DNA of 64,000 bases from Salinigranum halophilum (GTDB lineage Archaea; Halobacteriota; Halobacteria; Halobacteriales; Haloferacaceae): positions 310,001 to 374,000 of the forward strand of contig NZ_SSNL01000003.1 of NCBI RefSeq assembly GCF_007004735.1. Reading direction: 5' to 3'. The position numbers were made by a program, and so were the translations under genes. Below, one piece after another: positions 48,567-58,497 of this stretch. Positions within the stretch are counted from its first letter, which is position 1; each line of letters begins with the position of its first letter. The notes beneath the pieces were generated by a model that was given only the letters and a program-made list of their open reading frames with translations, ran no database searches and had not been told where the DNA came from.

Positions 48567-50117
48567 ATGCCAGAAGCTCCACCGACAGACGAGGGCTGGT
48601 TCGTGCTTCACGACTTCAGAACCGTCGACTGGGACGCCTGGCGCGACGCCCCCGACAGGGAGCGGAGTCGCGCCGTCGAGGAGGGCGTCAGCTACCTCTC
48701 CGCACACGAGTCCGTCGCGGACGCGGACGAGGGAGCGACGGCCGTCTTCAGCGTCCTCGGCCACAAGGCGGACCTGCTCGTCTTGCACCTCCGCCCCTCG
48801 CTGGACCACCTCTCCCGCGCCGAACGCCAGTTCGAGACGACGGCGCTCGCCGGCTTCACCGACCAGGCCACCTCGTACGTCTCCGTCACCGAGGTGTCGG
48901 GGTACGTCTCGGACGCGTACTTCACCGGGAACGAGGAGGACGTCGACGAGGGACTGCGCCGGTACATCGAGGGGAAGATGAAGCCCGACCTCCCCGACGA
49001 CGAGTACGTCTCCTTCTACCCGATGTCGAAGCGCCGGTCGGGCGAGGACAACTGGTACATGCTCCCCTTCGAGGAGCGCCGCGACCTGATGTCCACCCAC
49101 GGCGACACCGGCCGGGAGTACGCCGGGCGTATCAAACAGATCATCTCCTCCTCGGTGGGATTCGAGGAGTACGAGTGGGGCGTCACGCTCTTCGGAGCGG
49201 ACCCGACGGACATCAAGGACATCGTCTACGAGATGCGCTTCGACGAGGTGTCGGCCAGATACGGCGAGTTCGGCCAGTTCTACGTGGGCCGCCGGTTCCC
49301 GCCGGAGGACCTCGGCGCGTACCTCGCGGGCGAGTCAGTGCCGACGGCCGAGGGGAGCGACGACGGACATCCCCACGCCCACGCGGCCGCCGGTGACCAC
49401 CCCCACGGCTCCGACCACCCCCACGGCGACAGCGACCACGGACACGGGGACGAGCACCACGGTCACGGACATGGCCACGACCACGGTGACGACGAATCGA
49501 GCGACGACGCTCACGACGCCGACGACGCCGACGGCGCAGACATCCGCGGCGAACTCGACGACCTGAACATCTACGCCGGCAAGCCACACGGCGAAGACGT
49601 CTACGCGACCGTTCTCTACTCCGAGGCCGACCCCGACGACCTGTTCGAGGAGGTCGACGGCCTGCGGAAGAACTTCGACCACTACGGCACGCACGTCAAG
49701 ACCGCGGTCTACGAGGCCGACTCGGTCGACAAGACCGCCGTGGTGAGCATCTGGGAGACCGGCTCCGCGGCGGAGACGGCCGCGGGCTTCCTCTCCGAAC
49801 TGCCCGGTGTCGTCTCCCGCGCCGGTGAGGAGAGCGGCTTCGGGACGATGGGGATGTTCTACACCGTCAAGCCCGACTACCAGGAGGAGTTCGTCGAGAA
49901 GTTCGGCGTCGTCGAGGGGCTCCTCGACGAGATGGCGGGCCACCACGAGACCGCGCTGATGGTCAACCGCGAGGACGAGAACGACATGTTCATCTCCAGC
50001 CAGTGGCGCTCGAAGGAGGACGCGATGGGCTTCTTCCGCTCCGACGACTTCCGCGAGACGGTCCAGTGGGGTCGCGACGTCCTCGCCGACCGCCCGCGAC
50101 ACGTCTTCCTCGCCTGA
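48567..50117 (+). CDS. pitA: PitA: chlorite-dismutase-like haem protein fused to an ABM domain
   Basis: 516 residues. Residues 1-260 are a Cld/HemQ domain with the predicted haem-binding His178 in LMSTHGDTGREYAGRIKQ and VGFEEYEWGVTLFG. A His-rich linker (about 262-324, 16 His mostly in Gly/Asp-His steps) leads to an antibiotic-biosynthesis-monooxygenase-like domain (residues 325-516, containing VYATVLYSEADPDDLFEEVD). This matches PitA of Haloferax. HemQ/ChdC proteins make haem from coprohaem; that activity is inferred. The His run may bind metal ions. Confidence 0.93.
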   Translation: MPEAPPTDEGWFVLHDFRTVDWDAWRDAPDRERSRAVEEGVSYLSAHESVADADEGATAVFSVLGHKADLLVLHLRPSLDHLSRAERQFETTALAGFTDQATSYVSVTEVSGYVSDAYFTGNEEDVDEGLRRYIEGKMKPDLPDDEYVSFYPMSKRRSGEDNWYMLPFEERRDLMSTHGDTGREYAGRIKQIISSSVGFEEYEWGVTLFGADPTDIKDIVYEMRFDEVSARYGEFGQFYVGRRFPPEDLGAYLAGESVPTAEGSDDGHPHAHAAAGDHPHGSDHPHGDSDHGHGDEHHGHGHGHDHGDDESSDDAHDADDADGADIRGELDDLNIYAGKPHGEDVYATVLYSEADPDDLFEEVDGLRKNFDHYGTHVKTAVYEADSVDKTAVVSIWETGSAAETAAGFLSELPGVVSRAGEESGFGTMGMFYTVKPDYQEEFVEKFGVVEGLLDEMAGHHETALMVNREDENDMFISSQWRSKEDAMGFFRSDDFRETVQWGRDVLADRPRHVFLA

Positions 50118-53839: not shown

Positions 53840-56038
53840 ATGAATCTGTCCGGGCTTCGCGTCGCGACCCTCTCGCTGGGGGAGCGCACGCCGGAGCAGG
53901 TGGCGGCGTACGACTCGCTCGAGGGTACCCCCGTCGACCACATCGACCTCACGACCGTCGCTGCCGGCGACGCGCGGCTCTCCGACTACGACGTCTGCTG
54001 GTGGCACCGCGACCGCCCGCTCGAGTGGGCCGACGACGGCGACTCGACACTCGCCGCCTGCGCCGACCCGCTCGCAGACGCACTCGACGGTGGGGTCGGA
54101 CTCCTCCTGACGCTGCACGCGCTGTCGGCCGTCGCGCCGCTGGGCATCGACCCGGTCGCCCCCGACGCGACGGGTCACGAGACCGCCCCGGCGCAGGTTG
54201 GCTACCTCGCGAAGGCCGTCCACCGCGACCACCCCGCGTTCGAGACGTTCCACTCGCTCCGAATCCACACCCGCGCGGCCGACGCCGACACCGCGTTCGC
54301 CCGCTACGAGCGCGTCCTCCCCGAACGAGGGACCGTTCTCGCCGCCGGGCTGCGGGGCGAGGACCTCCTCGTCGACCAGAAGCCGCTCGTCGAGTGGCAG
54401 GACGGACCGGGGCGAGTCATCGGGGCCGGCGTCGGCCTCTCGTTCGCCCACGCCCGCGACTTCGAGTGTGCGGCCGCGCAGGAACGACTCGTCGAGAACC
54501 TCCTCGTCTCGCTCGGAAGCGGGCGCTGTCCCGACTTCACCGACCGCCCCGCGACGACCGAGGGCTTCCAGCGCCTCCGCGCGGCGCTCGCGGACGACCA
54601 CCACCGCCCCGACTACCACTTCGCGCCGCCGGCGAACTGGCTGAACGACCCGAACGGGCTCATCCACCACGACGGGACCTACCACCTCTACTACCAGTAC
54701 AACCCCGGCGGCCCCAATCACGGCACCATCCACTGGGGCCATGCCACCAGCGAGGACCTCGTCCACTGGGAGGACCAGCCGGTCGCGCTGGCACCCGACC
54801 CCGACGGCCCCGACCGCGACGGCTGCTGGTCGGGGTGTGCCATCGACGACGACGGGACGCCCACGCTCCTGTACACGGGGGGCCGCGACCGGAGACAGCT
54901 CCCGTGTCTGGCGACGGCCGCGGCCGACGACCTCACCGCGTGGCGGAAACACGACGGCAACCCCGTCATCGAGACGGTCCCCGACGACCTCGAAATCCTG
55001 GGAACCGAACACTGGGAGGCGGAGTTCCGCGACCACTGCGTCTGGCGGGAGGGAGAGACGTGGTACCACCTCATCGGCTCCGGCGTGACCGACGTCGGCG
55101 GGACCGCGCTCCTCTACCGGGGCGACAGCCTCGACGACTGGGAGTACGTCGGCCCGCTCCTCACCGGCGACTGGGAGGGTGCTGGCACGGTGTGGGAGTG
55201 TCCCGAACTCCTCGACTTCGGCGAGAAACAGCTCCTGCACGTCTCGAACTACGCGGAGGTCCAGTACTTCGTCGGCGAGGCGGACCTCTCGACGCCACGC
55301 TTCGAGGTCGAGTCGCAGGCGCGACTCGACTACGGCGACTTCTACGCGCCCCAGAGCATGACCGACGACACGGGGCGACAGCTGATGTGGGCGTGGGTGC
55401 CCGAGGCACGCGGCGTCGACCCACAGTGGCAGGCCGGCTGGTCGGGGCTCATGACGCTCCCTCGCGTCGTCGACCTCGACGACGAGGGAACCCTCAGACA
55501 GCGACCCGCCCCCGAACTCGAGTCGCTCCGCGGCGAACCGGTCTCCGAGACGCGTGAACTCCACTCGGGTGACCGGCGGACCCTCCCCCTCTCGGGCAAC
55601 GCGTACGAACTCGACCTCACCCTCGAACGGGACGCCGGGGCGACGTTCGAACTCGTCCTGTTCGAGTCGCCGGCGCGTACCGAGCGCACCGTGGTTCGGT
55701 GGGTCGGCGACGAACTCGTCGTCGACCGCTCGCGGAGCAGCCACGGGCACGGCGCAGAGGAGGGCGAACAGCGCCTCCCACTCGCCCCCACCGAGGGCGA
55801 ACCCATCGACGGACACGCACACGTCGCCGACGGCGGACACCCCGGCCGTGACGAGCTCTCGCTGCGTGCCTTCGTCGACGGCTCCGTCGTCGAGCTGTTC
55901 GCGAACGACTCGCGGTGTCTCACCTCACGGGTCTACCCGACCCGGCAGGACGCCGAGGGTGTCTCGTTCGTCGCGCACGGGGGGACCGTCTCGATCGACG
56001 TCGACGCGTGGGCACTCGACGCCGCGTTCCCGCGGTGA
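53840..56038 (+). CDS. glycoside hydrolase family 32 (fructan/sucrose hydrolase) with extra N-terminal domain
   Basis: 732 residues. From residue about 255 it is GH32: the nucleophile Asp270 in [14 protein letters not shown], the transition-state Asp398 in EFRDHCVW (usually FRDP) and acid/base Glu453 in [11 protein letters not shown]-terminal beta-sandwich (residues about 590-732) ends in [21 protein letters not shown]. Residues 1-230 are an alpha/beta domain ([32 protein letters not shown]) like a glutamine-amidotransferase/ThuA fold. It cleaves beta-fructosyl linkages. No signal peptide is seen. Convergent with the GH68 gene. Confidence 0.93.
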
Positions 56039-56131
56039 GTCGGGGCTGTCGCGCTCGCCCGCCGTCGCGTCGGGGCTGTCGCGCTTGCCCATCGTCGCGT
56101 CGGTCGGTCCGTGCTGGTCCCGCGGCCGCCC

Positions 56132-57442
56132 TCAGCGCCCGTAGCCGTCGCGGCCGTCTCGTTCGCCTCGGAGCCGTGCGAGCCGCTCGGTTTCCGTCTC
56201 GGGCAGCGGCTCGTCCTTCGTCGGCAGGTGGCCGTGGGCGAGCGTCCCGCGGATCCACGTCTCCAGACCGTCGACGCCGAGTCTGAGCGTCGGCGCGAGC
56301 GTCCCGCCGAAGCGGCGGAACTGCTCCGCTGCCGGGAGAAGGCCGACGTCGTCGAGGCTCGGCCGGTCGTAGTCGTAGTAGTTGAAAAAGGAGGTGACGA
56401 GTATCTCGCCGCGGTGGCCGTACGCGAGCCACGAGTACGCCTGGAACGGCGCGTTGGCGGGGTTGGTCGCGACGAGCCCCGTCCCGTTCAGCGGCTCGTA
56501 CTCTCCGAAGAGGGCGTCGGCGGCGAAGCCGTACAGCGCGTCGTAGCCGTCGAGCCCGGGCGCGAACGTGTGCTTGTGGCTGGCGATGAAGAGGTAGTAG
56601 GTGCCGTCCCGGTAGACGACGTGCGGCCGTTCGAGCTCCTGGTTGACGCAGACGCCGTCGACGAGCGGCGGGAGGAGTTCGCACGCGGTCGGGTCGTCAC
56701 GGTCGGCCCGGGCGATACCGACAGAGCCGTTGAACGCCTGTTGTTCGGCGTCGCCGCCGCAGGCGTCGGTCCCCTCGGGAACGGGCGTGTTCCCCTCGAA
56801 GAGGATGTACGCCTCGCCCGTCTCGGGGTCCTCGAAGTACCACGGGTCGCGGAAGGTGTAGATCATCCCCCGCGACTGCTCCTCGCGCTCGTACCACTCA
56901 CCGTCGGGGCGGGCGAGCGAGTCGTGCTCCCACGGCCCGTCGAAGTGGACGCCGTCGTCGACGCGAATCGAGCCGCCGTGGGCGACTGCGAGGTGCTGTG
57001 TGTACGACAGGTCCGACTCGTCTCTGTGTCCGGCCGCGGTGTAGTACAGCGACACGGCCCCCGTCTCGGGGTCGTAGATGGCCGACCCGGCCCACTGGCG
57101 CGACCCCAGTGGGTCGGAGTCGCCGAAGAGTGTCCCGCCGGGCGTCCACGTCCTCCCGTCCGCGGAGTAGTAAAAACGGTGGGTCGCGACGTCGTGACGC
57201 TTCCCCGGGAGGAGGTCGTTCGGTGCCGAGAGGGCGACGATGACGCGGTAGCCGCCGACGTCGGCGATTTCGCCGTCGGGAGTACGCAACAGCCACGTGT
57301 CCCAGATGTGGTTGTCCGGGTCCGTCGGCTCGTCGGGTGGGTAGATGACCGGTGCGGTGTTCTCGGCCGTCCGCTCGAGACCGCTGGCGTGTTCGCGGGT
57401 CCAGGTCGAGGGTCGTCGGTCCCCTCCGGCGTCGTTGTTCAT
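56132..57442 (-). CDS. glycoside hydrolase family 68 (levansucrase/inulosucrase-type fructosyltransferase)
   Basis: 436 residues. GH68 signatures are complete: nucleophile Asp48 in NHIWDTWLLR, SRQWAGSAIYD, the transition-state Asp199 in FRDPWYFED, and acid/base Glu271 in QELERPHVVYRDG. It uses sucrose to build beta-fructans (levan or inulin) or hydrolyses it; product type cannot be read from sequence. There is no signal peptide, membrane segment or Tat motif, although GH68 enzymes usually work outside the cell. A TATTTTTG box 28 nt upstream supports the ATG. Confidence 0.93.
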   Translation of the reverse strand: MNNDAGGDRRPSTWTREHASGLERTAENTAPVIYPPDEPTDPDNHIWDTWLLRTPDGEIADVGGYRVIVALSAPNDLLPGKRHDVATHRFYYSADGRTWTPGGTLFGDSDPLGSRQWAGSAIYDPETGAVSLYYTAAGHRDESDLSYTQHLAVAHGGSIRVDDGVHFDGPWEHDSLARPDGEWYEREEQSRGMIYTFRDPWYFEDPETGEAYILFEGNTPVPEGTDACGGDAEQQAFNGSVGIARADRDDPTACELLPPLVDGVCVNQELERPHVVYRDGTYYLFIASHKHTFAPGLDGYDALYGFAADALFGEYEPLNGTGLVATNPANAPFQAYSWLAYGHRGEILVTSFFNYYDYDRPSLDDVGLLPAAEQFRRFGGTLAPTLRLGVDGLETWIRGTLAHGHLPTKDEPLPETETERLARLRGERDGRDGYGR

Positions 57443-57473: not shown

Positions 57474-57558
57474 GGCCACTACTTCGGACGCGGGTCGCCG
57501 AACCGGTTCGACGGGGTGTTCGCACATCCAAATCCATTTGATGACTGACGGCCAAGCG

Positions 57559-58497
57559 ATGTCAATGACAAAGCGCCACGTGTCTCTCCCCCCCGAAGCC
57601 GAAGAGGGAGTCGACGCTTTCATCACCGAAGTCGACCAGCGACTCTCGTCCGACGAGGACGTCTGCGGCGTGGTTCAGGACGTCCTCGTCGACCTCTTCG
57701 GTGACCGCGAGGCGTACGAGCGGTGGCAGTCGGGCAAGCCGGTGTCGGCGGCGACTCGGGTCCGACTCCAGGGGTACGACCCGTGTAACGCGACCATCGA
57801 GTCGGAGTACTACGCCGAGAAGGACGAGACGGCGTTCAAGAAGTCCAAGTACCTCCAGTGGCTCTGGCGCCAGTTCGACGCCACCCCGATGGCCGACAAC
57901 GTCGAGTTCGCGCTCCGGTTCCGGCAGATGCTCGCCGAACACCTCTTCGAGCGCGTCGGCGACAACTGCCGCTTCTTCAAGGGCATCTCCTTCACCTACG
58001 GGCACAACATCACGGTCGGTGACAACACCGTCATCCACGACGACGTCCACCTCGACGACCGCGGGAAGCTGACCATCGGCGACCGTGTCTCCCTCTCCGA
58101 CAGCGCCCACCTCTACAGCCACGACCACGACATCGTCGACCAGACGGCCGTCGAGAACTATCACACCATCGTCGACGACGACGCGCGGGTCACCTACGAT
58201 GCGATGGTCACTGCCGGCTCTCGCGTCGGCAAGAACAGCGTCGTCGGTGCCAAGGCGATCGTCCGCGGCGACGTCCCGGACCACCACATCGCCGTCGGCT
58301 CGCCGGCCAAGAGCGTGAAGGTCAAACCGGGCTGGGAGGACGTCGCCGAACCGCTGGAGGCGGGCGGCGAGAACCGGAAGGAAGAGCGCCGAATCGAGTA
58401 CGAACTCCCCGCGGACCTCGAGGTCTTCGACGAGTTCGGACGTGACTTCACGCCGCCATCGACGTCGACGTCGTCGTCGCGGACCAACTCGCAGTGA
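57559..58497 (+). CDS. hexapeptide-repeat (left-handed beta-helix) acyltransferase
   Basis: 312 residues from the ATG at 57559; ATG 57541 is possible. An N-terminal helical part (about 120 residues) precedes the beta-helix: GDNCRFFKGISFTYGHNITV, GDNTVIHDDVHLDD, LTIGDRVSLSDSAHLYSHDHD and GSRVGKNSVVGAKAIVRGDV, ending in the typical IAVGSPAKSVK. The His in YSHDHD is the usual catalytic position. It acetylates or acylates a sugar or similar acceptor. Next to the fructan genes, but on its own promoter; a link is speculative. Confidence 0.9.
   Translation: MSMTKRHVSLPPEAEEGVDAFITEVDQRLSSDEDVCGVVQDVLVDLFGDREAYERWQSGKPVSAATRVRLQGYDPCNATIESEYYAEKDETAFKKSKYLQWLWRQFDATPMADNVEFALRFRQMLAEHLFERVGDNCRFFKGISFTYGHNITVGDNTVIHDDVHLDDRGKLTIGDRVSLSDSAHLYSHDHDIVDQTAVENYHTIVDDDARVTYDAMVTAGSRVGKNSVVGAKAIVRGDVPDHHIAVGSPAKSVKVKPGWEDVAEPLEAGGENRKEERRIEYELPADLEVFDEFGRDFTPPSTSTSSSRTNSQ

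Follow-up and report, generated by a model that had tools for sequence, protein, structure and literature searches.

Within the window (the whole 64,000-nucleotide stretch of Salinigranum halophilum DNA analyzed here), a GH32 gene and a GH68 gene lie tail to tail and converge (Table 1); they are the only members of their families in the 4.2 Mb genome. This order, the family assignments and the intact motifs of the original prediction were all recovered: Pfam profiles recognize both catalytic modules of the GH32 protein (GH32N, E 1.1e-78; GH32C, E 1.5e-24), which has the motifs NDPNG at residue 269, FRDH at 396 and WECPE at 452, as well as the GH68 protein (PF02435, E 2e-78), whose catalytic triad of D48 (IWDTW), D199 (FRDP) and E271 (ELERPH) is complete. 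The top PDB matches of the modeled GH32 propeller are GH32 enzymes. The GH68 protein (48.3 kDa, pI 4.58) has its closest named relative in Salinigranum salinum (86% identity). Between the two stop codons, a GC-rich repeat of 30 bp occurs in two tandem copies that are 90% alike (56039-56098). A hexapeptide-repeat acyltransferase-like gene (57541-58497, + strand) diverges from the GH68 gene and has a homolog at the equivalent place in approximately 15 of 81 loci; its product may be a sugar O-acetyltransferase that belongs with the ancestral site, or the shared position may simply reflect synteny. The gene at 48567-50117 (+ strand) has a homolog in Salinigranum salinum (L033:18061-19740) that matches chlorite-dismutase and antibiotic-biosynthesis-monooxygenase domains, a heme-handling fusion.

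Table 1. Positions of the convergent gene pair and its parts in the window.
Feature	Position	Strand	Basis
GH32 beta-fructosidase / fructanase, 732 aa, no export signal	53840..56038	+	Pfam GH32N and GH32C, motifs, N-terminus
DUF4960 domain at GH32 N-terminus, residues 1-250, fructan-binding type, flavodoxin/GATase-like fold	53840..54589	+	Pfam matches of orthologs, profile, Foldseek
GH32 catalytic five-bladed propeller, residues 260-556	54617..55507	+	PF00251; AlphaFold model, pLDDT 90
GH32 C-terminal beta-sandwich, residues 559-724	55514..56011	+	PF08244
Intergenic gap between convergent stops, 93 bp	56039..56131	.	Direct reading
GH68 inulosucrase-type fructosyltransferase, 436 aa, pI 4.58, no export signal, HXHT	56132..57442	-	PF02435, residues, N-terminus, clade with PDB 7BJ4

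Export signals and distribution of the pair

Both proteins had been predicted to lack export signals, and direct reading of their N-termini for Sec, Tat or lipoprotein signals found none; no uncharged run of 12 residues occurs within the first 60 residues of either. A missed upstream start that would add a signal was ruled out: a stop codon interrupts the GH68 frame 12 codons before the ATG, and extending the GH32 frame upstream yields charged, proline-rich residues only. A rule-based scan for Tat leaders (RR and then a hydrophobic stretch free of charged residues, with every ATG tried over a wide upstream range, and with matched positives) found no leader in 80 GH68 and 55 GH32 homologs; it flagged 11 of 11 GH68 proteins that were examined in a sister clade, which shows that the scan recognizes leaders of haloarchaea. 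Next to some of the leaderless GH68 genes lie genes for solute-binding proteins with Tat-lipobox leaders, so that these clusters do use such signals. The leaderless state, originally regarded as an exception among GH68 enzymes, was upheld as such, but not as an exception: among haloarchaea it is the usual state, and the Tat-signaled form is the minority clade.

In a sample of 392 Halobacteriales genomes, a GH68 of the leaderless clade was present in 127 (here the label denotes clade membership; leaders were read directly in the fetched loci only), and 121 of these also encode a GH32 with the additional N-terminal domain. The GH32 gene is convergent and adjacent in 83 of the 127 genomes, and convergent within approximately 6 kb in 107; the GH32 occurs without a leaderless-clade GH68 in only 7 of the 392. 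The co-presence table (121/6/7/258) yields a Fisher p of ~6e-84, which ignores shared ancestry and is descriptive only. Tat-clade GH68 genes were found in 17 genomes, none of which (0/17) pairs them with a convergent GH32; the two clades co-occur in 5 genomes. Among 76 named loci with sufficient flanking sequence, the convergent GH32 is present in 61, within 300 bp in 55, and the median of the gap is 21 bp. The families common to 81 loci are GH68 (75 loci) and GH32 (62), the next family being found in only 15, and the genes flanking the pair differ between families. Pairs in Haloferacaceae, Haloarculaceae, Natrialbaceae, Halalkalicoccaceae and others rule out a chance adjacency or a feature of one lineage; the expectation that these genes belong together is borne out across the order.

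Two haloarchaeal GH68 clades

In a maximum-likelihood tree that included two bacterial sequences as outgroup, all 82 leaderless GH68 rows, including the characterized inulosucrase PDB 7BJ4 and the window enzyme, formed one clade (support 100/98), and all 12 Tat-signaled rows (10 different sequences) formed a separate clade (96/83). The acceptor-site motif follows this split, with HXHT in 80 of 81 leaderless rows and HXFT in 11 of 12 Tat rows. The window GH68, which matches 7BJ4 at 558 bits, retains the HXHT inulosucrase residues H289, H291 and T292, and its D364 aligns with the acceptor-groove residue D365. A second characterized enzyme, HmcIsc of Halomicrobium sp. IBSBa (48.2 kDa, pI 4.58), produces inulin, with beta-2,1 linkages, from sucrose (PMC8066391). 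The residue comparison with HmcIsc was made through the Halomicrobium katesii ortholog as a stand-in, which has the stated residue at 21 of 21 published positions checked, with the same numbering, and starts without a leader; since it matches HmcIsc in this way, HmcIsc itself is very probably leaderless. The window GH68 also carries 21 of the 21 checked residues. Tree and residues thus place the window enzyme with the characterized haloarchaeal inulosucrases HmcIsc and 7BJ4, in agreement with the fructan synthesis first proposed for it; by clade and motif it is an enzyme of inulosucrase type (the HmcIsc group), inulin synthesis having been demonstrated for HmcIsc only.

In the window GH68, C228 and C265 correspond to the two cysteines for which a disulfide was proposed in HmcIsc. 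Some leaderless GH68 proteins lack the pair (L005 and L024 have lost the second cysteine), and it is missing from most members of the Tat clade; this patchy occurrence would be odd if the disulfide stabilized an extracellular enzyme.

The N-terminal domain of the GH32 protein

Residues 1-250 of the GH32 protein constitute a separate domain, absent from the original prediction, in its modeled fold (pLDDT 93.7). With a permissive threshold, Pfam recognized DUF4960 in 32 of 35 orthologous N-domains (best E 1.3e-13); 2 of 10 full orthologs lie above the curated cut-off of 29.2 bits for this family, PF16324 (L043, 33.8 bits; L070, 32.6 bits), and the window copy alone scores 10.9 bits against the same cut-off. 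A profile of the N-domain matches the DUF4960 protein of the levan utilisome (PDB 8A9Y, 8AA0, 8AA2) at 6.5e-14, and a Foldseek search with the predicted fold returned chain G of 8AA2 as its best match (1.7e-13; next match, 2.3e-6); the best match in sequence and in fold therefore lies in the Bacteroides levan utilisome. The motif DxxWWH (residues 51-56) is invariant. A reading of the domain as GATase/ThuA was replaced by DUF4960 on the basis of Pfam, profile and Foldseek results; the folds are related. DUF4960 and GH32 occur together in 5 of 103 Pfam sequences. A DUF4960 domain bound immobilized levan with an apparent affinity of 10-20 nM, and inulin approximately tenfold more weakly (PMC10076258). 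Since a domain of this type has been shown to bind fructan, its presence suggests, by analogy, that the GH32 acts on a polymer and not on sucrose alone, and strengthens the role in fructan breakdown that had been assigned from the catalytic motifs.

Cellular location, role, and comparison with known systems

Genomic context differs among relatives. In Halorubrum, Halobellus, Halohasta and further relatives, genes for a CUT1 ABC importer and the regulator TrmB lie near the GH68 gene, with or without the GH32; at the locus of Halobellus sp. Atlit-31R, a PfkB kinase and a GH13 enzyme are found as well. The window has none of these neighbors, and an adjoining importer was rejected as part of the window pair: the nearest binding-protein homolog is encoded on another contig, within its own CUT1 cluster. 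Two loci with Tat-signaled enzymes show other arrangements. At L156 (G239:C27, 15127-18096), two Tat-signaled GH68 genes stand in tandem close to a CUT1 importer, and the contig also carries leaderless DUF4960-GH32 genes. At L154 (G240:C2, 1298-12556), one strand holds genes for a GH68 with a Tat signal, a binding protein with a Tat-lipobox leader and a DUF4960-GH32 without a leader, along with, as judged by sequence, putative genes of an oligopeptide/oligosaccharide-type ABC transporter; to judge from its predicted genes, this arrangement looks like synthesis outside, import, and digestion inside the cell.

Microbial fructans are normally treated as extracellular polymers (exopolysaccharides). 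As neither of the paired proteins has an export signal, fructans may instead be made and recycled inside the cell. We regard the chances as evenly balanced that the pair constitutes a module for fructan turnover, conserved among haloarchaea and supplied with imported sucrose, whose enzymes are most likely cytoplasmic; the location, the in vivo substrates and the reserve role are what we infer. Sucrose would be imported, and the leaderless GH68 would transfer its fructosyl units in the cytoplasm to an inulin-type fructan, with release of free glucose; the leaderless GH32 would grip the chain with its N-terminal DUF4960 domain and trim inulin to fructose, which sugar kinases would pass on; the polymer could serve as carbon reserve, protectant, or both. 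More tentatively, with a probability that falls somewhat short of even, many haloarchaea may run a true intracellular fructan cycle in which sucrose is imported, polymerized to inulin and remobilized by DUF4960-GH32.

In favor of a cytoplasmic site, there is no leader in the window pair, and no Tat leader in the 80 GH68 and 55 GH32 homologs, against 11 of 11 in the sister clade; the importer neighbors in relatives, the leaderless partner enzyme and the existence of a Tat-signaled alternative clade argue in the same direction. Furthermore, HmcIsc activity is lost at 5 mM Ca2+, and the source lake contains 0.32 g/L, or approximately 8 mM (PMC8066391). The module as a whole is favored by the conserved convergent pairing, the complete set of HXHT inulosucrase residues, the DUF4960 domain, and the inulin-growing strain AArc-St2, which has this GH32 and this GH68 as its only enzymes of the two families. 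Against the module, no importer adjoins the window pair, and the importers of relatives are at most candidates for sucrose uptake; in the literature searched, no demonstration of intracellular fructan in any archaeon was found.

The published data on location point both ways. HmcIsc was described as extracellular, the medium in which its host had grown yielded inulin, a PRED-TAT signal call was reported, and the recombinant enzyme preferred Na+ in vitro and was strongly inhibited by K+ salts (PMC8066391). These observations speak against a cytoplasmic site. The haloarchaeal cytosol is rich in KCl. As a caveat, the HmcIsc tested came from expression in E. coli and its turnover was very slow (PMC8066391), so that its ion profile may not be native. 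Inulin in the medium and inhibition by K+ salts argue for a route by which the GH68, and perhaps the GH32, leave the cell without an N-terminal signal, the inulin being made and then digested outside. Some bacterial levansucrases, of Gram-negative species, reportedly exit the cell without a classical signal; judged from sequence alone, such a route may therefore exist here too. Natronocalculus amylovorans AArc-St2 grows on inulin (PMC9726719), and its genome encodes one GH32 and one GH68, a leaderless convergent pair (L049); as the sole GH32 in an inulin-growing strain, the leaderless DUF4960-GH32 is the main candidate for inulin hydrolysis. This growth could fit either site, with inulin imported as oligosaccharides or with an enzyme that leaves the cell. 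Leaderless export is nevertheless rather doubtful, since the 80 GH68 homologs lack a hydrophobic stretch of any signal class, there is a Tat-signaled sister clade, which 5 genomes have beside the leaderless one, importers are encoded nearby in relatives, and 5 mM Ca2+ abolishes HmcIsc activity.

Alternatively, both enzymes could be cytoplasmic sucrases and fructanases for imported sucrose and fructo-oligosaccharides, with a GH68 that mostly hydrolyzes and a polymer that is a by-product without a reserve role. The clusters with CUT1 importer, TrmB, PfkB and GH13 do resemble sugar-utilization loci, AArc-St2 grows on inulin, and GH68 enzymes hydrolyze sucrose too. Purely catabolic function is unlikely, however: a GH32 would suffice for sucrose cleavage, which would make a conserved GH68 partner redundant; DUF4960 suggests that a polymer is bound; and the inulin-synthesis residues of the HmcIsc and 7BJ4 clade are all kept. 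That the pairing is mere inherited chromosomal order is most improbable; acyltransferase, aldo/keto reductase and chlorite-dismutase-like flanking genes are also common to 13-15 loci, yet GH68 and GH32 far exceed them (75 and 62 of 81, against 15 for the next family), the flanks vary between families, and the presence of the two genes is linked.

The GH68 inulosucrase and GH32 families and the characterized haloarchaeal GH68 enzymes are already known. A search of open-access literature turned up no account of the order-wide convergent pairing of GH68 and DUF4960-GH32, of the leaderless GH68 as the norm in contrast to a Tat clade, or of the haloarchaeal GH32 N-domain as a DUF4960 domain. Approximately one third of the sampled Halobacteriales genomes thus encode a GH68 without export signal, nearly always together with a signal-less GH32 that bears a domain of fructan-binding type. 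If both enzymes work inside the cell, they would represent an archaeal polymer-reserve pathway of which the searched literature gives no description, and a true intracellular cycle would amount to a cytoplasmic fructan reserve in a prokaryote; if both work outside, they would imply an archaeal leaderless export route. The Tat-signaled sister clade, present alongside in some genomes, provides a ready control.

Among known systems, HmcIsc shares the clade of the window GH68, a nearly equal size and an equal pI; it differs in its description as extracellular, and the paper's discussion includes neither a partner GH32 nor the gene neighborhood (PMC8066391). The enzyme of PDB 7BJ4/7BJ5/7BJC, which forms a clade with the window GH68, is identical in sequence to the Halalkalicoccus locus L014 where aligned. 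The Tat-signaled haloarchaeal GH68 clade has the GH68 fold and triad in common with the window enzyme at approximately 50% identity, and is set apart by its twin-arginine leader, by HXFT in place of HXHT, and by the lack of a convergent DUF4960-GH32. The GH32 beta-fructosidases and invertases of Thermotoga (1UYP) and Frischella (7VCO) share propeller, beta-sandwich and the NDPNG, RD and EC motifs with the window GH32, but are without the 250-residue DUF4960 domain, and their matches start at residue 245-256. That domain finds its counterparts, by profile (6.5e-14) and fold (1.7e-13), in the fructan-binding DUF4960 of Lev-Lev5 (PMC10076258) and of the levan utilisome (8A9Y/8AA2); in gut bacteria DUF4960 is part of surface proteins, whereas the window copy forms the N-terminal part of an archaeal GH32 that has no leader, and its binding of fructan is predicted only.
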